Program-made: the position numbers and the translations under genes | Notes under the pieces: generated by a model | The model's database searches: none | The model's input: the letters and a program-made list of their open reading frames with translations, nothing else | What the model was told of the DNA's origin: nothing | Origin: Lachnospiraceae bacterium | Lineage (GTDB): Bacteria; Bacillota; Clostridia; Lachnospirales; Lachnospiraceae | Direction of reading: 5' to 3' | Assembly (NCBI GenBank): GCA_016283275.1 | Contig: JAEEMP010000028.1 | Coordinates: 1 to 50,285 of the forward strand | DNA: 50,285 bases | Part shown: piece after piece, positions 13,118-46,382 of the stretch | Position numbering within the stretch: position 1 is the first letter of the stretch | How the letters are laid out: each line of letters begins with the position of its first letter

Positions 13118-13657
13118 TTATCTGCCTTTGAGATATACGTTCTTTATATAATCGAGGGTTTTCGGTTCACCTTCGTCTTTAAGCATTGTAAGTATCCTTA
13201 AAAGATCGTTGTATGTATCTTCGTGAATATATTCTTTTTTGTCTTTTTCCAGAAAATAGTCAAGTGCATCGCTGTCTTTGTATGCGCTCTTCTTATAGAC
13301 CCTGCATGCGGCGATCCTGTCCATTACCATTTCGGCAAAATAATTTCTCGGCATGGGCATCGGCTCGTAATTTCCCGTTGATTCATTAAAATCCACCCAG
13401 TATTCGTAATGGTGTTTGTTCCTGCCTTTATGATGCATCCAGGCAGTAGACATTCCTATATCTTTTCTCTCGGCAACATTCGGGCTCCTTACTCCCTGAT
13501 AATATTTTACTCCGACAAAGAATTCGGCAGGTGAATACTTTGACAGATCGTGAGTGAGCCCCTGAGCATAAAGACCTATTTTAAAACAATAACGTCTTAC
13601 AAGTCTTCTGTGTTCGTTTACCGTTTTAAGATGTTTAAATACATTAATCACTTTCAT
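13118..13657 (-). CDS. DUF5662 family protein, HD-like histidine/aspartate pattern
   Basis: A 179-residue protein that I recognise only as DUF5662. It carries conserved-looking residues spaced like those of HD metallophosphohydrolases: His in VNEHRRL (about residue 16), HD in LTHDLSKYSPAEF (about 36-37), a histidine-rich WMHHKGRNKHHYEYW (about 73-87) and Asp in EMVMDRIAACR. No membrane segment or signal peptide is seen. Its start overlaps the 3' end of the GlgX-like gene by 14 bases, so the two are translationally coupled. An enzymatic function is inference; the substrate is unknown. Confidence 0.75.
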   Translation of the reverse strand: MKVINVFKHLKTVNEHRRLVRRYCFKIGLYAQGLTHDLSKYSPAEFFVGVKYYQGVRSPNVAERKDIGMSTAWMHHKGRNKHHYEYWVDFNESTGNYEPMPMPRNYFAEMVMDRIAACRVYKKSAYKDSDALDYFLEKDKKEYIHEDTYNDLLRILTMLKDEGEPKTLDYIKNVYLKGR

Positions 13658-15512
13658 GTTTTCTCAATAAAAATATCGATACGGACCTTTCGGGAGCTTT
13701 ATAATGATCTTCATCGTATTTAACCGCATTCTTTTCAATAAGATCCTGCAAAGTGGACCCGTCCGAACAGAAAAGCTTATACCATGTATAATTTTTATCT
13801 TTCATCGGAAGCACAAAATCAACACTCTCCCAATACATGTTAAACACTATAAACACGGAATCCTCGGGCCTGCCGTTATATTGCTTGGCATAATCGCCCG
13901 CAAACAATACAGCGAAAGAACGCGACACGGGATCCTGATTCATTTTAAAAGCAAGGTCAGAATGGAAAGAAACATCCGGAAGTTTACATGACATATAATC
14001 AAGAAGCCTGAGTTCCTTGGGCTGATGAAGGACTATATGTCTTTTCCTGAATGAAATAAGATCTTTGGTAAATTTAAAGAACTCTTTTGAGTTTTTTGTC
14101 TTTGAATATATTACCCAGCCTTCCTCGTTATCCTGACACCAGGGGTTATTGTTGCCGTTATTGGTGTTGAGCCACTCGTCTCCGCCGGATATAACAGGTG
14201 CTCCCTGGCATAATAGCATTGAAAGAAGCGCGTTTTTTTGCATTTTAAGCCTTAATTTCATGATCGCGGACTTCTTGGTCTCTCCTTCCGTACCACAATT
14301 CCAGCTGAAATTATAATTGTTTCCGTCTGTATTTGATTCTTTGTTTGCTTCGTTATGCTTAAAGTTATAGGTATAAATATCTCGAAGCGTAAAACCGTAA
14401 TAATCCGTTATGTATCTTAACGGTTCATAAGTTTTGTTGTTTTCTCTTATAAAGTAGCTTACTGCAGAAACGTTATCCTCATCGCCTTTGATGAAGCTTC
14501 TTAACTTATCTCTCGAATAAGGATTGTAAAGAGCGAGATTTTTGTATTTTAAAGGCTTTTCCTTATAAAATCTTGAAAGATTATCATCTTCAAGAAGCAA
14601 TTTGGTATTCTGCATAAAAGGATCGTTGACGATAAGATCCTTATTGATATCATTGCCGAGTATCCTGAAACCGTCCACATGATAATTCATCACATAGTGT
14701 CTCAATACGGCCCTTATAAGCTCTTCGCCGGTATCTTTAGGGAAGAACATCGTAAGGATTATCTCTATGTTGTTCTGATGGAATTTGTAAACCGTATTCT
14801 TAAATTCAAGATTAGGTTTATCTGAAAAAGAATAAGCGGATTTCAACGAAAAATAAAAACCTTTTCTAAATCCCCAGAAATCTACGGGAGGCTTCTCGTT
14901 AAGGTCCTGCTTGTAATTTAACAGCGCATCCGCAAGATTATTGCTGTCGGTCTTTGAACATTCATTAAACTCATAACATGGCATGAGTATCAAACCTGTT
15001 ATGTTCAGCTCTTTAAAATATTCTATTTTTTCCTGAAGCCCCAAAAAAGTGCCTTTATGTTTAACACTTTTATCAAGCATGGTAAGACCTCTTACATGCG
15101 CAAGATAAAATGTGCTGTCACAATAAGGGATAAGGGGAAATTTATCGTTTTCAAAGCCTTCTATCGATATATCTTCTTCTATCGCGGAGTAATAGTCGGA
15201 TTCGCTGCGTGCAAGTCCGTATTCCGTATTCTTAAAATATACCGAAGCGTATTTATCGTTGAATTCACTGCTTTCCGTATAATATCTGTATACAGTGTCC
15301 GAATTGATCCCGTTTACATATACGCAAAAAACATTTCCGTATCCGTAATCGGGTTCGAAAGATATCTTAAGTTTTTCTTTGAGTGAGGATTTTTCGTAGA
15401 ATACAATTCCGCCTTCACGGACGAAATCCAGTATACAGGAAAAATATATGCCTTCGGATGTTTTTTTATTACCAAACCCCATAAAAGGAGCTCTCTTAAT
15501 TTTCACGCTCAT
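13644..15512 (-). CDS. GlgX/isoamylase-like GH13 protein lacking catalytic residues
   Basis: A 622-residue homologue of glycogen-debranching enzymes. The N terminus resembles the carbohydrate-binding module start (KRAPFMGFGNKK). A strongly conserved stretch HNEANKESNTDGNNYNFSWNCG (residues 386-407, family NLSWNCG region), GAPVISGGDEWLNT and NNPWCQDNEEGW place it in the GlgX/TreX group. The catalytic sites are gone: the nucleophile motif GFRxD reads GFRIL (Leu285), the AHD stabiliser motif reads DYY (Asp370-Tyr372), the DVVYNH region reads TMFFPKD, and AEPWD is absent. It is therefore probably a binding or scaffolding protein. The ATG lacks a clear ribosome binding site, so the start could be the Met at residue 11. 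Coupled to DUF5662 downstream. Confidence 0.82.
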   Translation of the reverse strand: MSVKIKRAPFMGFGNKKTSEGIYFSCILDFVREGGIVFYEKSSLKEKLKISFEPDYGYGNVFCVYVNGINSDTVYRYYTESSEFNDKYASVYFKNTEYGLARSESDYYSAIEEDISIEGFENDKFPLIPYCDSTFYLAHVRGLTMLDKSVKHKGTFLGLQEKIEYFKELNITGLILMPCYEFNECSKTDSNNLADALLNYKQDLNEKPPVDFWGFRKGFYFSLKSAYSFSDKPNLEFKNTVYKFHQNNIEIILTMFFPKDTGEELIRAVLRHYVMNYHVDGFRILGNDINKDLIVNDPFMQNTKLLLEDDNLSRFYKEKPLKYKNLALYNPYSRDKLRSFIKGDEDNVSAVSYFIRENNKTYEPLRYITDYYGFTLRDIYTYNFKHNEANKESNTDGNNYNFSWNCGTEGETKKSAIMKLRLKMQKNALLSMLLCQGAPVISGGDEWLNTNNGNNNPWCQDNEEGWVIYSKTKNSKEFFKFTKDLISFRKRHIVLHQPKELRLLDYMSCKLPDVSFHSDLAFKMNQDPVSRSFAVLFAGDYAKQYNGRPEDSVFIVFNMYWESVDFVLPMKDKNYTWYKLFCSDGSTLQDLIEKNAVKYDEDHYKAPERSVSIFLLRKHESD

Positions 15513-19061: not shown

Positions 19062-20744
19062 TTATTTCTGCTTATCTCTCGGCAGATATTTTCTCAGGAT
19101 GGTGTTGACCCATGTCATATCTATGGGTTTCGGAACATAGTCATTGAAACCTTCCGATATGAACATTTCCCTGACACCGCTCATGACATTTGCCGTAAGC
19201 GCTACAACAGGAACATTCTGCATATATTCATCGGGGTCGGACCTTATAAGATTAAGCGTCTCGATACCGTCAAGCTCGGGCATCATATGATCCATGAATA
19301 TGATGTCATAGATCTTACTGTTCCTTAATATATCAAGACATTCTCTTCCGCTCTTACATGTATCGACGGTAAGACCGAACGTACGAAGAAGACCCTGTGC
19401 AACCTTTAAGTTGACCGCATTATCATCAACGACCAAAACACGGGCAGAAACTGCGGTAAGCTTATTCTCTGGTTCTTCGACCTTATTGTCGGAATAGATG
19501 AACGATTCCTGTTTATCCGATATCTTCTGAATAATGGTAAAAGAAAACTTGCTGCCGACACCATAAGACGATTCAACGTAGATCTCGCCGCCCATCAAGC
19601 CTACCAGTTCTTTACATATGGCAAGGCCTAAGCCGGTTCCCTCACGTGAATTGGATCTGTGTGAATCAAGCTGCTGAAAACTTGTAAATATCTTTTGAAG
19701 ATCGTCCTTTTTGATACCTATACCGGAATCCGTAACGGCTATCTTTAATCTTATCTCGTCGTTTTCGAGAATATCACCGCCCACGTCGATGGAGATATAG
19801 CCGTTATCCGTATATTTAATGGCATTGGTAAGAAGATTGAACAGTATCTGCCTTATCCTTATCTCATCTCCGATAAGTACATCGGGAACGGTATCGGCTA
19901 TTTCGTATCGCATCTGTACATTCTTATCGGAAAGACGGATCTGCATTATATCGACGGTTTCCTTGATAAGGTGAGAGATCGAATAATTGACGGGAACGAT
20001 CACCATCTTGCCGCTTTCCATTTTTGAATAATCAAGGATATCATTGACTATGGAAAGAAGAATCTTGCCTGAATTTTGAATACTCTGCGTGTTCTCTCTG
20101 ACCTGAGGGGAAAGATCTTCTCTCAAGTTAAGCTCAGCCATACCGCAGATGGCGTTCATGGGCGTTCTTATCTCATGAGACATATTCGCAAGAAAGAGCA
20201 TCTTGGAATTATTGGCTCTCTCGGCTTCTTCCGCCTTATCTTCCATACCTTTCATGTAGTCACGGGCATATTTAACGATGATATACAGGTTTATCGAAGC
20301 CACGAAATACACAAAGCAATAGAAGAAATATATCATTAGCGAATCTAATTTGAGCAGAATCTCATTGGGAATAAATATCGCATAAAGAATAAGGGCGACA
20401 AGTGAAGAGATCACACAGAATATAATGTTCTTTCTCTCCATAAAAATGGTAAATCCCGCTGTCATCGCAAGATAGATCAATATTGAAAAAGCGGTTGTAT
20501 GAAGCACATATCCTATAATCGTTGTGGAGATGATTATAGATATGGAAAATGAATTGACGACAAATGACTGATTTTTAAATAAAAGAGTTATCAAATAAGA
20601 AAGGGTTATCATTACGCACGAAGTTATCAGAACAAACAATCCTTCATGTATGCTGAAGCATGAATAAGCATAAACTACATGAAGCAACAAAACTAAAAGA
20701 TACTCTAGAAGTACCAGTCTGACTGTCTTCTGATAACCGTACAT
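19062..20744 (-). CDS. Hybrid sensor histidine kinase with receiver domain
   Basis: A 560-residue membrane kinase. Five or six hydrophobic helices occupy residues about 8-160, with no large extracellular domain, then a coiled linker. The HisKA site is LANMSHEIRTPMNA (phospho-His190). The ATPase domain is complete: N-box NLLTNAIKYT, G1 DSGIGI and G2 GTGLGL. The receiver at about 434-553 starts RVLVVDDNAVNLKVAQ, with phospho-acceptor in FMDHMMPELDG (Asp485). There is no Hpt domain or DNA-binding output, so signal must pass to a separate Hpt protein or act by autoregulation. It lies 26 bases after degV, behind AAGGGG. The input signal is unknown. Confidence 0.92.
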   Translation of the reverse strand: MYGYQKTVRLVLLEYLLVLLLHVVYAYSCFSIHEGLFVLITSCVMITLSYLITLLFKNQSFVVNSFSISIIISTTIIGYVLHTTAFSILIYLAMTAGFTIFMERKNIIFCVISSLVALILYAIFIPNEILLKLDSLMIYFFYCFVYFVASINLYIIVKYARDYMKGMEDKAEEAERANNSKMLFLANMSHEIRTPMNAICGMAELNLREDLSPQVRENTQSIQNSGKILLSIVNDILDYSKMESGKMVIVPVNYSISHLIKETVDIMQIRLSDKNVQMRYEIADTVPDVLIGDEIRIRQILFNLLTNAIKYTDNGYISIDVGGDILENDEIRLKIAVTDSGIGIKKDDLQKIFTSFQQLDSHRSNSREGTGLGLAICKELVGLMGGEIYVESSYGVGSKFSFTIIQKISDKQESFIYSDNKVEEPENKLTAVSARVLVVDDNAVNLKVAQGLLRTFGLTVDTCKSGRECLDILRNSKIYDIIFMDHMMPELDGIETLNLIRSDPDEYMQNVPVVALTANVMSGVREMFISEGFNDYVPKPIDMTWVNTILRKYLPRDKQK

Positions 20745-30258: not shown

Positions 30259-32685
30259 TTAAAGTTTTTCAAGAAGAACATTTATTTCTTCCTTTACGGT
30301 ATGGAAGTCATACATTGAATAAGCTTCAAACAGTTTGCTTAAGATCTCATTCAATTCTTCACCGAAATTGCGACCCTTCAGGGCTTTAATTGCCTTGTCG
30401 CTGTCCCGTAAGACCATAGCATCGATCTTATTTTTAAGATCGCTAACGACATCTTTTGTAAGTTCTTCAAGCGGAAGCGTACTCAGTTCTTCTACGGATC
30501 GTTCTTCAACATAATTGAATGCATTATTGCTTTCAAGATATGCTTTTACATCTTCAAGGATCTTCTTAAACGCTTCAATATAAGGAGCGTAGTGTTCTTT
30601 TATAAGTGCGGTGTTTCCTTCTTTTCCGAAAGATTCAAGTTCTTTGAACATCTTGGATACCGTCATCGCACCGACACTCGCACTTGAAGATTTGATACCG
30701 TGCACATCCGTTGTAAACATCGCAAGATCGCCGGCTTCCAGAATGTCGTCCAATTCTTTTAACTTACGCATACCTTCGCTGTAGTAGGTATTTAAGATCA
30801 CGTTATAGGATTTTTCGTTATATTCAAGGGCCGAAAGCCCCTTGTTGACATCAAGTATATTTTCTTCGGATAAAAGATCGACCTTATCTTTGTCTTTTTC
30901 CTTATCGGTCTTGACCATTTTAAAGACACTCGCGGGCAAAATATCCGAAAGGATCTTTAAAAGATACTTCTGCTTGATCGGTTTTGCTATGTATTCAACA
31001 AATCCCTGAGCGATTATCTCATCTCTTATGTTGCTTCCCTTATTGGCTGTAAGGGCGACAACCGGAACATTCTTTATGTTTTCGTCGTCTGACTCGCGAA
31101 TCTTAAGAAGCGTTTCTAGTCCGCTCATTTCGGGCATGATCATATCCATAAGAACAAGATGATAGTTGACTCTCGCCATCTTTGTAAGACATTCCTGGCC
31201 GGATACGGCTATGTCGACATCTATCTTGTAGTGTTTGAATATACCCTGCGCAACCTTTAAGTTGACCATATTGTCATCGACAACGAGTATCCTGGCCTTT
31301 GAACCGTCATATTCGGCCTTTTCGATCCTTGACCGGAAGTTTTCGGGATTCCACTGCTTATTGAGTACATCCGCAACGCCTATTGAGGATACAGGCTGCT
31401 TGATGATCCTGCATTTGTCAAAATCTCCGTATGATTCCATTACATCCGAAACTACATACGTGGAATCTTCAATACCGTATTTAATGATGATCGAAGAGAC
31501 ATTTTCGTAAAGTTCTGAAGGCACAAAGATAAAATCATATTTTTTATTGGTGATGGAATTGTCAAACGCAAATACTGAATAAGCGTAATCCGGTATGATC
31601 TCAAAACTTTCCATTATATCTTTCCATACCGAAAGTTCGCGGTCATCGGTTATATATATAAGCACATTGAATATCTTATCGCTTTCAACTTTAGTCATGG
31701 GGGAAGGATCCACAACATCAAGCACAAAGGACAATCTTGACTCAAGGCCCACACCTTCTATGCTTTTGATCTCAAGATTACCGTCCATAAGTTTAAGAAG
31801 CTCCCTGCACACGGAAAACTTAAGCCCAACACCTTTAAGATTGGGATTCTGTCTTGAGTCGTATGTCTCGTATGCACCGTAGATCGCATCAAGATCGGCT
31901 TCCGAAAGACCGCGTCCGGTATCCGAAAAGCTTAAGTTAAACCTTGCTCTGCCGTCATTTAAGGATTCCGAGCTTATATCAAACATGATCCTTCCGTTAT
32001 CGGTAAGCGAAAGAGAGATAAACATTAATCGCGTGAAGACCTGAAGGATTATCGCACTGTCACCGGAAACGATCTTCGGCATATTTCTGTCGATCTTGAC
32101 ACGCATTTTCAGTTTCTTTTCCGCGATCTGGAAAGAAACTGAATCAACATATCTTTTAATGAAATCAGAAAGGTCGAAATTCTCTTTTGTAAGCTTTAAT
32201 TTGCCCTCATCAAGCTTTGAATACATAAGAACGTCGTCGATAATGCCCAAAAGATCGTATGCCTGTGACTTGATCGTTAATATCTCCTGTCTGGTACTTT
32301 CGGGCATATCATTTTTAAGCATAAGTTCAGACACACCTATGATAGAGTTCATGGGTGTTCTTATGTCATGAGTCATATTGGAAAGGAAACGCTGCTTGGC
32401 CATTCCGGTCTTTTCGTCGTTGTAACTGTCGGTTTTTATCTTCTCCTTTACGGATTTAAACCCTTTCTCCTGCAAAAAAACAAGAAAACAGAGCACCAAA
32501 ACAGTAAACACAAAAGCAGCTACGATCTCAAGGGTGAAATGTCCGGGATCGGATACATTTAAATATCTTTCCCTGTCTTTAAAGCATCTTATCACGATGA
32601 TCGCATCCCAAATGATCAGAAAGACCATGATCCATCTGTAATCATAACGATTTTTATGAAATTTTGAGAACAGATTGATCTTCAT
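30259..32685 (-). CDS. Hybrid histidine kinase with receiver and Hpt domains, eroded ATPase N-box
   Basis: An 808-residue signalling protein. Two membrane helices (about 18-34 and 51-71) lead to a HisKA site LSNMTHDIRTPMNS (His106). The ATPase domain keeps G1 SDTGRGL and a GVGLKF G2, but the N-box reads RLMFISLSLT and lacks the Mg-binding asparagine. A receiver-like domain without a standard acid pocket lies at about 337-440. A complete receiver (RILVVDDNMVNLK, Asp514 in LMDMIMPEMSG) and an Hpt domain (VHGIKSSSASVGA, His662) follow, then a variable tail. It could act as a phosphorelay intermediate even if kinase activity is low. Coupled to the upstream hybrid kinase by GAGG nine bases away. 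Confidence 0.87.
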   Translation of the reverse strand: MKINLFSKFHKNRYDYRWIMVFLIIWDAIIVIRCFKDRERYLNVSDPGHFTLEIVAAFVFTVLVLCFLVFLQEKGFKSVKEKIKTDSYNDEKTGMAKQRFLSNMTHDIRTPMNSIIGVSELMLKNDMPESTRQEILTIKSQAYDLLGIIDDVLMYSKLDEGKLKLTKENFDLSDFIKRYVDSVSFQIAEKKLKMRVKIDRNMPKIVSGDSAIILQVFTRLMFISLSLTDNGRIMFDISSESLNDGRARFNLSFSDTGRGLSEADLDAIYGAYETYDSRQNPNLKGVGLKFSVCRELLKLMDGNLEIKSIEGVGLESRLSFVLDVVDPSPMTKVESDKIFNVLIYITDDRELSVWKDIMESFEIIPDYAYSVFAFDNSITNKKYDFIFVPSELYENVSSIIIKYGIEDSTYVVSDVMESYGDFDKCRIIKQPVSSIGVADVLNKQWNPENFRSRIEKAEYDGSKARILVVDDNMVNLKVAQGIFKHYKIDVDIAVSGQECLTKMARVNYHLVLMDMIMPEMSGLETLLKIRESDDENIKNVPVVALTANKGSNIRDEIIAQGFVEYIAKPIKQKYLLKILSDILPASVFKMVKTDKEKDKDKVDLLSEENILDVNKGLSALEYNEKSYNVILNTYYSEGMRKLKELDDILEAGDLAMFTTDVHGIKSSSASVGAMTVSKMFKELESFGKEGNTALIKEHYAPYIEAFKKILEDVKAYLESNNAFNYVEERSVEELSTLPLEELTKDVVSDLKNKIDAMVLRDSDKAIKALKGRNFGEELNEILSKLFEAYSMYDFHTVKEEINVLLEKL

Positions 32686-32694
32686 TTACATACC

Positions 32695-34812
32695 TCAAAC
32701 ATCAAAATCATACTTAAGACAGTCAACGGGTGCATACTCAATAAGGAGTCTTTCAAGCTTGTCTATTTCAATGGGCTTTGAAAGAAATGCATCGAATCCC
32801 GCATCCATGAACATTTCCCTTGCGCCGCTCACGACATTGGCCGTAAGTGCGATAACGGGAAGCGAAGCGATCCTTGCATCGTTTATCTTTCGGATTTCCT
32901 TAAGCGTATCTATACCGTCCATATCGGGCATCATATAATCCAAAAATACGATATCGATCTTTTCTCTGGAAAGACATATAAGTCCTTCTTTACCCGAAGC
33001 CGCTTTATAGATCTTTGCCTTGTATCTGGACATCAGATTTTCCGCAACATCAAGATTTGTACGGTTATCGTCAATGATAAGTATAGAAGCTCCCGGTATC
33101 GTGATCGTGCCCTTATAAAAAGCTTTCTTGACCGAATTATTAAGTCTCTTGTTGAAAAGTGCCGCTACATTTAGACAGGTTATCGGTTTTAACAGTGAAT
33201 ATTTAAATGGTTCACCCGTATATGCGGGGTTCGCGTATCCGATCACAACAACCTTGTTCCAATTGATGCCGGAATCGTTCATCTTATCTTTTATCTCGTT
33301 ATAACGAACATTTCCTATGATGACGAATTCATAAGTATTAAGACCCGAAAGTGTTAAAAAATCTTCATCCGATTCTGCGGCAACATAAGAAATCTTCATC
33401 TGATCGAAAAGTTTTGAAATTATAAAATAATCCTTATTGTCATCTGTATAGATGAGCACCCTCCCGGGATCGTTAAATAATGTGCCGCAATATATGCCCC
33501 TGTATGGCCTGTCAAGATCCTGTTCGACTTCAAATAGGAACGATGAACCTTCGACATCGTTTGTCTTTTCTTTCGGTATAAGCCTGCCCTTTAAAAGACC
33601 TGTAATCTTAAGACAATACAAAAGATTGATGCTTATATCGTCATCGGGCACGTATTCATGGTCGTCGTCGGAAAATTCTCTCGGATAAAATACCCTGTTG
33701 ATCTTCTCCTCATCAAGTCTTTTCCCGGTATCTTCAACTTCAAAAGTAAGGTAGATCTTATCTTCATTAATGTTTTCAAAATCGACCTTAAGATTGATAT
33801 GATCTTCCTTGGTATTTTTTACGGCATTTGATAAAAGCGTGACAAGAACCTGCCTTATCTTATCTTTGTCGCCGTATATGGTCGTGGGTAATTTGGGGTT
33901 TATATCAACATAAAAATTTACAAAAGAATCAAGAAGCCTTACATTGAACTGATTAATGATATCTTCAAGCATTTCGACAATGTCATATCGTTCGACTTCA
34001 AGTGACAGTTCCGAATTGACTCTGGAAAAATCCAAAAGATCCGAAGTGATCGATAACAGTGCATGGCTTGAATTGGATATGCTGCTCACCATTTCCTTGA
34101 TATCGGGCGAAACATCCGAATCAAGAAGATAATCGGATGTTCCGATTATCGCGTTTAACGGAGTCCTGATCTCATGAGAAACATTGACCATGAACATGTC
34201 TTTTGCGAAATTTACCTGTTCAACCTTAAGCCCTTCGTTTGCATGTTCTTTAAGCTCGATCAATGCGTATTTTCTTCGTAACGTAAGAATAAAAACTCCG
34301 TATCCGGATGTAGCGATGACCGCAAATATAAGACGTATGTAATCGTTAAAGTTAAGCCCCATATAATGGCTTAAAGCATTGGGACCGAGCCAGAAAGTAT
34401 ATATTATGGAGAAAAGATCGATCGCGCCTAAGATCGACAGATAAACTATCCTTTTGGGGCCTCTTAAAAAGATAAGGATCAAAAGAAAACCTATTGCAAG
34501 ATAAATAAGCATTTCGGCGCTGTTTTTCTTTGAAAATATAAAGAACAACGGGAAAAACACAAAGTCGATAAGGATAAGAAAAATATTAACAAGTCTGTCG
34601 GTTTTTTGGGAAAAATATTCAAATACGATAAAAAGAGCAAACACACCGGTCAAAAGATAACCGATTATGATCGTATCGTAATCCATCTTAAAAACAGTAC
34701 AGAGAAAAGCAAAAAGAAGACTTAGGAAACTGCAAAACAACAGACTGAAATAAAACAGTCTTTCTTTAACGGATATATTCTCTTTAAAGATTCTGCTAAA
34801 CAGTTTATCCAT
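32695..34812 (-). CDS. Hybrid histidine kinase with two receiver-like domains, eroded G2 box
   Basis: A 705-residue protein. Six or so membrane helices occupy about 18-180. The HisKA site is NVSHEIRTPLNA (His213). The ATPase domain has an N-box LLSNAVKNT (Asn329) and G1 EDTGKRL, but the usual GxGLGL G2 box is replaced by DDDISINLLYC, so ATP binding is doubtful. A receiver-like domain without the canonical phospho-site lies at about 450-560, then a complete receiver (SILIIDDNRTNLD, Asp625 in FLDYMMPDMDG). There is no Hpt domain. GGGGAGGGG precedes the ATG. Upstream is the HD-GYP regulator, downstream the Hpt hybrid kinase. Confidence 0.87.
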   Translation of the reverse strand: MDKLFSRIFKENISVKERLFYFSLLFCSFLSLLFAFLCTVFKMDYDTIIIGYLLTGVFALFIVFEYFSQKTDRLVNIFLILIDFVFFPLFFIFSKKNSAEMLIYLAIGFLLILIFLRGPKRIVYLSILGAIDLFSIIYTFWLGPNALSHYMGLNFNDYIRLIFAVIATSGYGVFILTLRRKYALIELKEHANEGLKVEQVNFAKDMFMVNVSHEIRTPLNAIIGTSDYLLDSDVSPDIKEMVSSISNSSHALLSITSDLLDFSRVNSELSLEVERYDIVEMLEDIINQFNVRLLDSFVNFYVDINPKLPTTIYGDKDKIRQVLVTLLSNAVKNTKEDHINLKVDFENINEDKIYLTFEVEDTGKRLDEEKINRVFYPREFSDDDHEYVPDDDISINLLYCLKITGLLKGRLIPKEKTNDVEGSSFLFEVEQDLDRPYRGIYCGTLFNDPGRVLIYTDDNKDYFIISKLFDQMKISYVAAESDEDFLTLSGLNTYEFVIIGNVRYNEIKDKMNDSGINWNKVVVIGYANPAYTGEPFKYSLLKPITCLNVAALFNKRLNNSVKKAFYKGTITIPGASILIIDDNRTNLDVAENLMSRYKAKIYKAASGKEGLICLSREKIDIVFLDYMMPDMDGIDTLKEIRKINDARIASLPVIALTANVVSGAREMFMDAGFDAFLSKPIEIDKLERLLIEYAPVDCLKYDFDV

Positions 34813-41059: not shown

Positions 41060-42403
41060 TTAGCGGCTTACATCCAGTAAACAATCCAGTAAATCGCGTC
41101 CGCTTGATTTTACAATATCAACTTTAACTTGTAAAGAATCCTTGAATTCGTCAAGAGTCATATCATCAAGGAATATATCTTCGTCGGCTTTAAGTACGCT
41201 TTGAGGCAAAAGAACGCGCTTCTTGTATCCGTGTTCTTTTAACTGCTTAACTATATCGCCGCCGGTAAGTAAACCCGCAACGGTGATCGTCTCGCCGAAG
41301 AAGTCATTTCTTACTGCGACCACGTCTACATCCGCTTTCGGAAAAGTTTTGTTTACCTTATCCGCAAATTCTTTCATGACGGGATACACAAGTTTTCCGG
41401 TCACAAGTGTACATTCCGAGCGTTTCATAAAAAGTTTTTTAATGCCTTTGTACTTGGTGGATGCCAAAGCCTCATAAAATTCATTTATCAAAAGCCTTGT
41501 CATTCCAACTCCGTTTGCAAGCTGCAGATACCCGTCGTATCTGTCCTCTTCGGGCAGTTCTCTTCCGGCATTTATGTACCATTCGTCGCTTGCATGAATA
41601 AAATGTGTGCCGCTTTCTTCATAGAATTTTTTCTGATATGCTTCGATCATATCTATGACTTCGCAGGCGTCTTCCTTTGTGAACGGTTCAAGCTTTGTAA
41701 GCTTTTCACGATACTTGGTAAGGCCGACGGGCACGACCGATACACTTTCAAGATAAGGTATATACTTCGAAAGATCTTCGATCGACCTTTTAAGCTCGGC
41801 CTTATCGTTGTAGCCTTTACAAAGAACGATCTGGCCGTTCATCGTAATGCCGTTCTCATAAAGCCTGTCCACTATCTTAAGACAGTCGCCCGCGAATCTG
41901 TTTCTTAACATCTGACAGCGAAGTTCGGGATTGGTGGTCTGAAATGAGATATTGATGGGCTCCATCCTGAATTTTATGATACGATCGACATCATGTTCGG
42001 AAAGATTTGTAAGCGTGACATAATTTCCCTGAAGAAACGAAAGCCGTTGATCGTCATCTTTAAAATAGAGCGTTTTGCGAAGCCCCGGCGGCATCTGATC
42101 GATAAAGCAGAATATACAGCCGTTTCGACAGCTTCTGTAATCGTCCATAAGCCCTTCGTCGAATTCAAGGCCGAGATCGTCGTCTTCGGGCTTATCTATG
42201 GTAATTTCCGCAGGCTCTTCGTCTCTTAAAAAACCTATCTTTAAATGGGACGACAATATATCATACCTGTAATCGAAAATATCCTCTATTTCTTCTCCGT
42301 TGACGGTAAGGATAACATCACCGACTTTAAGCCCTGCCTTTTCGGCAACGGAACCTTTTTCAACCGATCTTATCTTATGTGTCTTAACACTTTTATGTTC
42401 CAT
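41060..42403 (-). CDS. PDZ-radical SAM protein of the DUF512 family
   Basis: A 447-residue protein. Residues about 1-75 form a PDZ domain (SVEKGSVAEKAGLKVGDVILTVNGEEI). The radical SAM-like motif CRNGCIFCFIDQMPPGLRKTLYF follows, with cysteines in CX3CX2C spacing. The DUF512 domain fills the C-terminal half (GLTKYREKLTKLEPFT; HASDEWYINAG; GLLTGGDI). This family is conserved in Clostridia next to der, which suggests a role near ribosome or tRNA metabolism, but the reaction is unknown. It has no membrane segments. It heads the long minus-strand operon and diverges from prs. Confidence 0.93.
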   Translation of the reverse strand: MEHKSVKTHKIRSVEKGSVAEKAGLKVGDVILTVNGEEIEDIFDYRYDILSSHLKIGFLRDEEPAEITIDKPEDDDLGLEFDEGLMDDYRSCRNGCIFCFIDQMPPGLRKTLYFKDDDQRLSFLQGNYVTLTNLSEHDVDRIIKFRMEPINISFQTTNPELRCQMLRNRFAGDCLKIVDRLYENGITMNGQIVLCKGYNDKAELKRSIEDLSKYIPYLESVSVVPVGLTKYREKLTKLEPFTKEDACEVIDMIEAYQKKFYEESGTHFIHASDEWYINAGRELPEEDRYDGYLQLANGVGMTRLLINEFYEALASTKYKGIKKLFMKRSECTLVTGKLVYPVMKEFADKVNKTFPKADVDVVAVRNDFFGETITVAGLLTGGDIVKQLKEHGYKKRVLLPQSVLKADEDIFLDDMTLDEFKDSLQVKVDIVKSSGRDLLDCLLDVSR

Positions 42404-43745: not shown

Positions 43746-46382
43746 TTAATCGGTATTATTATTTACTGAACTTTCATTAACCAAAGGAAGTGTAACGGTC
43801 GCTTTAAACAGATCTCCGTCAAGATATACTTCAAAATTACCGTTATGAGCCTTTACGAGCGACTTGACTATCGAAAGGCCGAGCCCGCTTCCTTCCGAAC
43901 TTCTCGCCACATCTCCTCTTATAAATCTCTCCGTAAGTTCCGAAGCTTTAATGTTTAACTGCTGAGCGGAAATGTTTTTAAACGACATTACAAGATTTTT
44001 GTTTATCTCGTCTCTTTCAACATCAAGATATACCCTTGTGTCGGGCATTGCATATTTATAAGCATTCTGAAGAAGATTTTCCACTATTCTCCATATATAT
44101 CTCGGATCCGCTTCGATCACAACAGCGCCTTGCGGAAGCGATGTTATCAATGAAAGCCCTTTTTCATTGAACTTTTCTTCAAATTCGCCCTGAGCCTGAT
44201 TGATAAGCTCTGTGACATTCATTCGCGTGATCTCTAAAGTGATGTTGCCCGAAGTGATCTTCGATGCCTCCACAAGATCAACGGTAAGCTGCTTTAGCCT
44301 TTGCGATTTTTCGTCTAAGATCCTTATATAATTTTTGACTCTGTCATTATCAATGTTTTCACGTTTTATAAGATCCACATAATTGATAATGCTTGTAAGC
44401 GGTGTTTTTATATCATGTGAGACATTCGTAATAAGATCGGCTTTTAATTTTTCGTCCTTTGAACTTGTCTCGACGGCTTTTTGGATGGAATCGCCGACAT
44501 CATTTACTATAAGAGCGAAAGTACGGTTATCGCCGTGAAGTTTTGAAACATCGAGTTTATAATTAAAATCTCCGCTGTTTATCCGATCGATGGCGTCGAA
44601 TATCTTCTTTCTCTCAAGACTTCTGTTAAACAAAAGTATGCCCACCAGACCGTCAAACAAAAACAGTACGAGAAACGAAACTATTGTCCAGTTTGAGAAA
44701 AACAGCATGCAGGCCCAGAATGTGTTGAATATCAAAAACAAAAGGTAAGCAGACCACACTCTTATCGCAAGGCCGAGTGAATCGTATACTCTCCAGAAGA
44801 TTCTTTTAACAAAAGAAAATCTCTTACCGAACCATTTAAAGAAAGCCACTATGATACTCGATTTGAACAATACCTTAAGATAAGCTCTTCTGATGATACT
44901 GTATAAGATCAAAAGTCCGATCACGGAATAGAAAAACGATGACACGATATTGGGAAGCAGGACATCGTTAAGTGTTAAGTAAGGCGTCCATACGGTTTCA
45001 CCGCATATAAATATCCTCAAAAAATGAATGATGAGATAAATAAGAGCACAGATGATCATTTCCGTCTCTATCGGCATTCTGTCAAATAATTTAAGCTTCT
45101 TTTCGGCATCTTCACACGCAAATCTTTTTCTTCCGTTTATGCAGATGATGACCATAAGTCCCACAAAAGAAACAAGACCGACAGCCGCAAAAGAAATGAC
45201 CCACGGAACATTTTTAAGTGATTGCTTCTGATTGTTGTAATTCTGCGAAAAGATATCGGTTACGGGATATGTGGTATCAAGACCGACCCATATGACGGTA
45301 TCGTCGGGATAAAAATATCCGTAATCCATAAACGCCTGTTTGACATTGTCATAGATAAGCGGCGTATTTGTAAGATAATCTATATTTTTCGGACATGCAT
45401 ATATATATTCGCCCAAAGCTTTAAATGTTTCCGAAAGCTTTTGCGGATCCATAAGTCTGAAATTCAAAAGATTGGTGTAGATATCGGTTTCCTTGCTGCC
45501 GGTCGACACGTAAAAACGAAGATTTGTGTTGTCCGGATCGTATCTTTCCTCAAACATGAGATAATCTATGTAATTCGTATAAAGTTCAAGCGCGGACTTC
45601 TCAAGATTTGACACAAGTTCTGCGTATTCTTCGGAATCGGCCGCATAAAATTCAAGATTTTTACCCTGACACGAAAGATATCTGTTGGAAATAACATCAA
45701 GCATCGGAACGGTTGAATCATTGACATCGTTTGTAACGGAAGCAAGGCCGTAGTCATCCGCTACGATAACGGTCAAAGTCCCATTTGTATACGTATCGTA
45801 ATCTTCTTTACCTGCTTCTTCGGTTTCGGTCTTTTCGTTTTTTGAATCGTTTACATCGTCGATTCCTGTTATTACATAGGTCGTTTCATGTTCATAATCG
45901 TCTTTGGTATTTTTGCTCTGTCCGAAAAACGCATCAAGATCTTCCCATTTGTCAAACACCTTATATGAATGGGATATACCGTTTGTTGATATACCGAACT
46001 GTCCCCAGGCGATAAGATCCTTTAAAAAATATTCCGCCTCGGGTCCCGTGTACTTCGTAAGATCCGATCTGTGTGCAAACTCACCGATCTTGATGCGTTT
46101 GTTGGGATTGTATTCACCGTTTGTTTCGAGCTGGGATTTTATGACGGCAAATCTTGCGATATCTCTTACCGAAGCATCAAGATTTGTCGTATATGATTCG
46201 GAATCGTAATAATCCGAACGAAAATCGATCAAAGAAAGGGTGTCGGATATCTCGCCCGAACCGCTTCTTACAAGAATGTGTGCATAAAAAGAATAAATAC
46301 AAATACAGGCACTAACCAAAACCGCAGATAATGCCTGTAATAAGATCAATGTATATCGTTTTAAAGTTCCGTCTTTAATCAT
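43746..46382 (-). CDS. Large membrane sensor histidine kinase
   Basis: An 878-residue kinase. TM1 (about 10-31) is followed by a very large extracytoplasmic domain (about 40-388) that is rich in Asp, Glu, Tyr and Asn and matches no domain I can name. Then comes TM2 (about 391-415) and four more helices (441-460, 476-498, 541-563, 567-588). A HAMP-like stretch and a HisKA site ITNVSHDIKTPLTS (His656) follow. The ATPase domain is complete (VENLLQNAYKY, GSGLGLSI), although the usual G1 Asp-Gly motif is weak (SFKNIS). It overlaps the response regulator stop by ATGA, so the pair is coupled. Confidence 0.92.
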   Translation of the reverse strand: MIKDGTLKRYTLILLQALSAVLVSACICIYSFYAHILVRSGSGEISDTLSLIDFRSDYYDSESYTTNLDASVRDIARFAVIKSQLETNGEYNPNKRIKIGEFAHRSDLTKYTGPEAEYFLKDLIAWGQFGISTNGISHSYKVFDKWEDLDAFFGQSKNTKDDYEHETTYVITGIDDVNDSKNEKTETEEAGKEDYDTYTNGTLTVIVADDYGLASVTNDVNDSTVPMLDVISNRYLSCQGKNLEFYAADSEEYAELVSNLEKSALELYTNYIDYLMFEERYDPDNTNLRFYVSTGSKETDIYTNLLNFRLMDPQKLSETFKALGEYIYACPKNIDYLTNTPLIYDNVKQAFMDYGYFYPDDTVIWVGLDTTYPVTDIFSQNYNNQKQSLKNVPWVISFAAVGLVSFVGLMVIICINGRKRFACEDAEKKLKLFDRMPIETEMIICALIYLIIHFLRIFICGETVWTPYLTLNDVLLPNIVSSFFYSVIGLLILYSIIRRAYLKVLFKSSIIVAFFKWFGKRFSFVKRIFWRVYDSLGLAIRVWSAYLLFLIFNTFWACMLFFSNWTIVSFLVLFLFDGLVGILLFNRSLERKKIFDAIDRINSGDFNYKLDVSKLHGDNRTFALIVNDVGDSIQKAVETSSKDEKLKADLITNVSHDIKTPLTSIINYVDLIKRENIDNDRVKNYIRILDEKSQRLKQLTVDLVEASKITSGNITLEITRMNVTELINQAQGEFEEKFNEKGLSLITSLPQGAVVIEADPRYIWRIVENLLQNAYKYAMPDTRVYLDVERDEINKNLVMSFKNISAQQLNIKASELTERFIRGDVARSSEGSGLGLSIVKSLVKAHNGNFEVYLDGDLFKATVTLPLVNESSVNNNTD

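Follow-up and report, generated by a model that had tools for sequence, protein, structure and literature searches.

Plant isoamylase 2 (ISA2) is a non-catalytic isoamylase that has been retained across the green lineage (PMC12510319). GlgX of Streptomyces venezuelae is regulated by c-di-GMP and forms dimers, and its acarbose-contacting residues have been named (PMC9530166). Here we analysed a GlgX-like gene in a 50,285-nucleotide stretch of Lachnospiraceae DNA (contig JAEEMP010000028.1, assembly GCA_016283275.1), referred to below as the window. Lachnospiraceae are among the common bacteria of the gut and rumen. We interpret the gene product, termed pseudo-GlgX, as a catalytically dead GlgX paralogue that selection has kept for alpha-glucan binding, and comparisons of its sequence lead us to give this interpretation a probability of roughly 0.55.

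13644-15512, minus strand: pseudo-GlgX gene, 622 aa, assigned by TIGR02100, an AlphaFold model and Foldseek

Catalytic positions of pseudo-GlgX and its family

The gene consists of a single 622-aa open reading frame (ORF) with an ATG start and no internal stop, in agreement with a preliminary description of this DNA, which had called it full length and free of frameshifts and stops. The product matched the GlgX equivalog model TIGR02100 with an E-value of 3.9e-70 and 236.7 bits, less than half of the cut-off (640.9), and remained under the cut-offs of the Pfam models alpha-amylase (18.5 bits, cut-off 22) and Isoamylase_C (17.8 bits, cut-off 27). Its best matches among solved structures were GlgX, plant isoamylase 1 (ISA1) and TreX. 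Catalytic positions were read from an alignment of the window protein with E. coli GlgX.

14733-14753, minus strand: altered motif I, residues 254-260, TMFFPKD replacing DVVxNHT (alignment)
14724-14735, minus strand: site where some 41 residues following motif I are deleted, E. coli GlgX 267-310 (row-by-row residue count)
14658-14660, minus strand: Leu285 at the position of the nucleophile Asp, E. coli D336 (alignment)
14589-14591, minus strand: Glu308 at the acid/base position, E. coli Glu371 (alignment)
14397-14405, minus strand: Asp370-Tyr371-Tyr372 replacing AHD, E. coli A441-H442-D443 (alignment)

At the three triad positions the window protein has Leu285, Glu308 and Tyr372 in place of Asp-Glu-Asp, and a second deletion removes about 14 residues after beta4. 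Three motif changes in the preliminary description were found as it gave them: GFRxD is GFRIL with Leu285 at the nucleophile position, AHD is DYY, and the DVVxNH motif is TMFFPKD (Thr254 to Asp260). The AEPWD motif, which it had listed as missing, is present in altered form as Leu307-Glu308-Asp309-Asp310-Asn311. The claim that all catalytic residues are lost thus holds for the nucleophile, AHD and motif I, but is too strong for the window protein, because Glu308 sits at the acid/base position, so that the protein may retain one of its three catalytic carboxylates.

To delimit the family, the dead type was defined by at most five residues in the segment corresponding to E. coli 267-310. This replaced a definition by the missing Asp336, which was circular, and added one row, L128. 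It gave 123 rows, of which 121 were distinct after removal of the copies L162 (= L080) and L163 (= L051), and 52 rows of long homologues. In the segment count itself, 2-3 residues were left in 122/122 deleted rows versus 43-46 in 48 of 53 other rows, where the 53-row set wrongly contained L128 and an aligner setting dropped insertions in 40 added rows.

A complete triad was found in none of the 121 distinct dead rows, versus 52/52 long homologues; the loss recurs throughout the family, beyond what chance would give. The nucleophile Asp was absent from 120 rows, the acid/base Glu was present in only 25/121, and the stabiliser Asp in 30/121. Counted per row, no triad residue was kept in 67 rows, one in 52 and two in 2. 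The one exception at the nucleophile, L128, aligns an Asp there but has Arg and Thr at the other two triad positions.

Relocation of an acidic residue was checked by alignment, in columns within seven aligned positions of the three triad residues. In the dead set, only the columns of E. coli Asp331 and Asp449 were at least 80% Asp/Glu, and both are equally acidic in active enzymes. Near motif I, the Glu257 column is acidic in 94% of the dead set and 60% of the active set. The window protein alone has Glu308, Asp288, Asp309, Asp310 and Asp370 near the triad sites. At the level of the alignment, the family has therefore fixed no relocated acid near these sites, and the refuting case named in the preliminary description, an Asp and a Glu supplied from nearby positions, was not found for the family. 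From the family-wide sequence pattern, the protein is very likely dead as a GH13 retaining enzyme.

Conserved loops, predicted fold and selection

Conservation of pseudo-GlgX differs between regions.

14127-14381, minus strand: beta7-beta8 loops, residues 378-462; Glu392, Asn456 and Trp458 in them are distal glucan-contact positions (conservation, mapped contacts)

Retention was scored for sites at least 90% conserved in active GlgX, a site counting as kept at 80% or more in the dead set (near-copies removed and the truncated L118 excluded, leaving 99 dead and 49 active rows). In the beta7-beta8 loops (E. coli 444-540), 30 of 33 GlgX-invariant sites were kept. The corresponding counts were 14/19 for beta1-beta3, 3/6 for the N-domain and 3/3 for the C-domain, then 3/24 for beta4-beta5, 1/9 for the stretch up to the AHD site and 0/12 for motif I and the deleted segment. 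Mean retention was 0.93 in the beta7-beta8 loops versus 0.04 in motif I and the deleted segment. The long GlgX-specific stretches noted in the preliminary description are kept in the alignment with E. coli GlgX.

The contact map was taken from S. venezuelae GlgX, in which Glu470, Asn534, Tyr536 and Arg212 are the acarbose contacts beyond subsite -1 (PMC9530166). Mapped by alignment, Glu470 is Glu and Asn534 is Asn in 120/121 distinct dead rows, with one gap row, and the Tyr536 position is Tyr or Trp in 120/121, the remaining row again being a gap. At the -1 site, Trp222 is kept as Trp and Tyr224 as Tyr or Phe, and the residues that vary in the dead set are His271, Asp342, Glu378, Trp380, His449 and Asp450. 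The retention of distal contacts together with variation of most -1 residues fits a protein that holds glucan but is unable to cut it. Glucan binding by pseudo-GlgX is likely on this pattern. Outer alpha-1,4 chains of glycogen would then be held via the kept distal positions, with the branch left uncut, and chains or branch points might be shielded, or other glycogen enzymes brought to them, as has been suggested for the ISA complexes of plants.

One of the distal contacts, at E. coli Glu463, is Trp in all 10 active GlgX of Lachnospiraceae (rows L140-L143, L145-L147 and L149-L151) and Glu in 120/120 readable dead rows.

An AlphaFold2 model was computed with 38 family rows, and reached a mean predicted local distance difference test score (pLDDT) of 83.7 and a predicted template-modelling score (pTM) of 0.87.

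15234-15512, minus strand: N-terminal beta domain, residues 1-93 (predicted strands; aligns with the N-domain of E. coli GlgX)
13659-13973, minus strand: C-terminal beta domain, residues 514-618 (predicted strands; Isoamylase_C match)

Foldseek ranked rice ISA1 first (E = 1.3e-44), followed by ISA1 of ISA1-ISA2 complexes, GlgX and TreX. TM-scores normalized by query length were up to 0.79 to ISA1 and S. venezuelae GlgX, and 0.71 to E. coli GlgX. In the model, pseudo-GlgX has the GlgX/isoamylase fold. Residues 1-93 take the position of CBM48 in GlgX and ISA, a label taken from the literature on the family (PMC12510319). Pseudo-GlgX thus resembles GlgX and TreX in fold, domain order, beta7-beta8 loops and distal glucan-contact positions, and differs from them in lacking a complete triad and the segment after motif I, and in its low TIGR02100 score.

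The pLDDT fell below 50 in loops 188-205, 381-410 and 452-465. Two of these, 381-410 and 452-465, nevertheless rank with the best-conserved parts of the family. Order in these two loops may come from a ligand, from a partner, or solely from the segment lost in the clade.

A quick maximum-likelihood tree of 78 rows, built without plant rows by a method that calls for caution with divergent rows, placed 50 dead rows on one side of a branch with an SH-aLRT support of 100. The dead clade adjoins 10 active GlgX of Lachnospiraceae, and the joint branch has a support of 99. Dead rows form a single clade whose sister group is the family's active GlgX.

Selection was estimated for 18 pairs by the Nei-Gojobori method with our own script. 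Synonymous sites were saturated in three pairs, and in the 15/18 with a defined dS the ratio of nonsynonymous to synonymous substitution (dN/dS) was 0.043-0.207, indicating strong purifying selection. The window gene and its 95% relative gave 0.057. The 38-row family alignment has 46 invariant columns. The preliminary description had argued for a selected non-enzymatic role over random decay. At the sequence level this is upheld by the clade-wide loss, the low dN/dS and the regional, not uniform, conservation, and a selected function of pseudo-GlgX is nearly certain.

Occurrence in Lachnospiraceae and comparison with known systems

In a search of 97 related genomes, in which the loci were then read, the dead type was present in 17/18 genomes of the genus of the window and in 33/41 other genera of Lachnospiraceae. 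A wider survey covered 396 Lachnospiraceae genomes for which a completeness of at least 90% was requested, the window's own genome being 86% complete. Any match was found in 371 of these. A full-length dead type was tallied by hand in 286/396, the type being inferred from the score (best E-value of 1e-125 or better), a line under which some short dead members fall (G049, G052, G055). All of the 40 further loci that were read, picked non-randomly from the scored lists, lacked the nucleophile (38 new loci and 2 copies of earlier ones). A survey of 393 genomes of the class listed 18 full-length matches of at least 570 bits, all of them in Lachnospiraceae. Among the matches listed, which include weak ones only in part, no full-length dead type as judged by score appeared outside the family; the best outside match had 388 bits in a 716-aa frame of active length. 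Open frames of at least 600 aa were present in most listed matches.

Partner enzymes were tallied by hand in 37 Lachnospiraceae genomes with at least 90% completeness and at most 5% contamination. The dead gene was carried by 32/37, and 8 of these 32 also had an active GlgX. In 14/32 (G006, G011, G017, G024, G025, G029, G036, G039, G043, G044, G046, G050, G054, G055) there was no active GlgX, no pullulanase over the TIGR02104 cut-off and no GDE_C (GH133-type) match above 100 bits, other alpha-1,6-acting GH13 subfamilies not being part of the search. In G025, one of the 14, a pullulanase match was partial (279 bits), and in several of them other proteins gave short GDE_C matches at about 20 bits. 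All 14 had glgA and glgB over the cut-offs. The window's own genome had no match at the GlgX cut-off and a type I pullulanase of 714 bits. Pathway reconstructions may take pseudo-GlgX for the debranching enzyme; if it is dead, glycogen breakdown in many Lachnospiraceae species lacks an explanation.

Like ISA2 of green plants and algae, pseudo-GlgX is a non-catalytic paralogue of GlgX/isoamylase (GH13_11) with a lineage-fixed loss, a varied nucleophile position and long retention (PMC12510319). An additional N-terminal beta-sandwich and an ISA1 partner characterise ISA2, whereas pseudo-GlgX has no room for such a domain, with strands starting from residue 4 and its N-terminal part aligning with the single GlgX N-domain. 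Unlike ISA2, it also lacks the segment after motif I, and often occurs in genomes with no active GlgX. The pseudo-GlgX profile gave an E-value of 4e-114 for ISA1 and one of only 1e-60 for ISA2. This difference speaks for a separate origin, the tree having held no plant rows. By analogy, pseudo-GlgX may work like ISA2, though it is not a member of ISA2. S. venezuelae GlgX is an active enzyme, and it demonstrates that regulation, dimerisation and glucan binding can be combined in a GlgX (PMC9530166).

It is conceivable, although we would not put it at even odds, that the family is a second, bacterial origin of an ISA2-like dead debrancher. It would then be an ancient glycogen regulator or scaffold in most Lachnospiraceae, often their sole GlgX-like protein, and such bacteria would debranch by another enzyme or manage without one while being mis-annotated as GlgX-bearing. 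If dead, the family could be used to test in bacteria why an inactive isoamylase persists, a matter debated for ISA2 (PMC12510319).

Butyrivibrio hungatei and Blautia obeum are both placed in Lachnospiraceae. The former has glgX1 (726 aa) and glgX2 (648 aa), of which glgX2 is annotated as a GH13 glycogen debranching enzyme with no CBM48 listed (PMC5716241); the length and family of glgX2 fit the dead type, and glgX1 fits the active type. More than one glgX has been counted in Blautia obeum, in a study that discusses glycogen storage as a niche-adaptation trait of gut commensals (PMC10395257). The shorter or second glgX of these species is a candidate for the dead type. The words "pseudoenzyme" and "catalytically inactive" do not occur in the examined text of a review of prokaryotic alpha-glucan enzymes (PMC11046441), and we found no description of a non-catalytic GlgX in Lachnospiraceae in the open full-text literature, a search that did not extend to subscription papers and preprints.

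Several observations weigh against glucan binding as the retained function. Arg212, the fourth distal contact, is Arg in 11/121 dead rows, although it is unconserved in the 52 long homologues as well. Rather than binding glucan, the conserved loop residues may support the fold or contact another subunit. Low pLDDT in the conserved loops 381-410 and 452-465 leaves the geometry of chain binding unpredicted. At the score used, 110 of the 396 genomes had no match, some of which carry short dead members. When E. coli GlgP, GlgA, GlgC and GlgB were compared with the called ORFs within seven of pseudo-GlgX, many flanks being only 1.5 kb, GlgB was found in 1/82 loci (L076) and the other three in none. 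Finally, glgA was over the cut-off in 389/396 Lachnospiraceae genomes, so that its co-occurrence with the dead type is uninformative. Of the seven genomes without glgA, the dead type was kept in three (G097, G269, G425) and no match was found in four (G244, G274, G451, G455), the status of G451 and G455 being inferred from absence among the matches listed. Co-occurrence with glgA was therefore discarded as a link to glycogen.

Alternative functions and gene neighbourhood

Pseudo-GlgX could instead be an obligatory regulatory subunit of an active GH13 debrancher, either GlgX or a type I pullulanase, as ISA2 is of ISA1. ISA2 is the closest functional precedent (PMC12510319), S. venezuelae GlgX forms dimers (PMC9530166), ISA1-ISA2 complexes are among the Foldseek matches, and the window's own genome has the type I pullulanase described above. 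The survey speaks against this, with an active GlgX in just 8/32 carriers and no debrancher recognised by the profiles used in 14/32. Many carrier genomes have no active GlgX, which makes an obligatory partner of this kind unlikely and disfavours an ISA2-like heteromer with GlgX, and we regard the regulatory-subunit explanation as a whole as improbable.

We consider it equally improbable that pseudo-GlgX has left glycogen metabolism for another process, for example one shared with DUF5662 or with the surrounding cluster of tRNA-ligase and helicase genes.

13118-13657, minus strand: DUF5662 gene, Pfam PF18907 (E = 3.3e-36), whose start overlaps the end of pseudo-GlgX by 14 bases

Such a departure would fit the scarcity of adjoining glycogen genes (1/82 loci) and the order that recurs over the 82 loci: gltX, a UvrD-like helicase, a divergent DUF1292 gene, pseudo-GlgX, DUF5662 and trpS. 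DUF5662 lies downstream on the same strand in 42/78 loci with at least 1 kb of downstream sequence, and its called start is within 30 bases of the pseudo-GlgX end in 27 of the 39 loci in which it is the next called ORF. Other neighbours, in loci with enough flank, were DUF1292 (41/75), UvrD (28/45), GltX (25/43) and TrpS (13/49). However, a role outside glycogen metabolism leaves the conserved glucan-contact positions unexplained, and synteny among housekeeping genes can be passive. The pairing is also not obligate, since DUF5662 occurs in genomes without pseudo-GlgX (G019, G021, G038, G042, G057) and pseudo-GlgX in some without DUF5662 (e.g. G017, G029).

In the DUF5662 protein, 22 rows share 53 invariant columns, with His, Asp or Glu in many (e.g. 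His36-Asp37, His75-His76, His82-His83), a pattern in the sequence that suggests a metal site. As a partner of known function it was set aside, its model being weak (pLDDT 73) with no Foldseek match below an E-value of 2, and the name DUF5662 was not found in the open full-text literature.

Continued enzyme activity by a displaced or inverting mechanism is very improbable. Glu308 of the window protein stands at the acid/base position, and the 14 genomes with glgA and glgB but no other profile-recognised debrancher would accommodate such an enzyme. Set against this are the deletion of the segment after motif I, the absence of a fixed relocated acid near the triad sites, and the rarity of both the acid/base Glu (25/121) and the nucleophile Asp, which is found in L128 alone and there without the other two residues. 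A decaying pseudogene, which the free variation of the catalytic sites among members might suggest, is rejected by the dN/dS of 0.04-0.21 and family-wide persistence, along with the 46 invariant columns in 38 rows and the frames of at least 600 aa, and we give it practically no weight.

Elsewhere in the window, 19062-20744, 30259-34812 and 43746-46382 together encode four histidine kinases, of which three are hybrids carrying receiver domains, and 41060-42403 encodes a protein with PDZ, radical-SAM-like and DUF512 domains.

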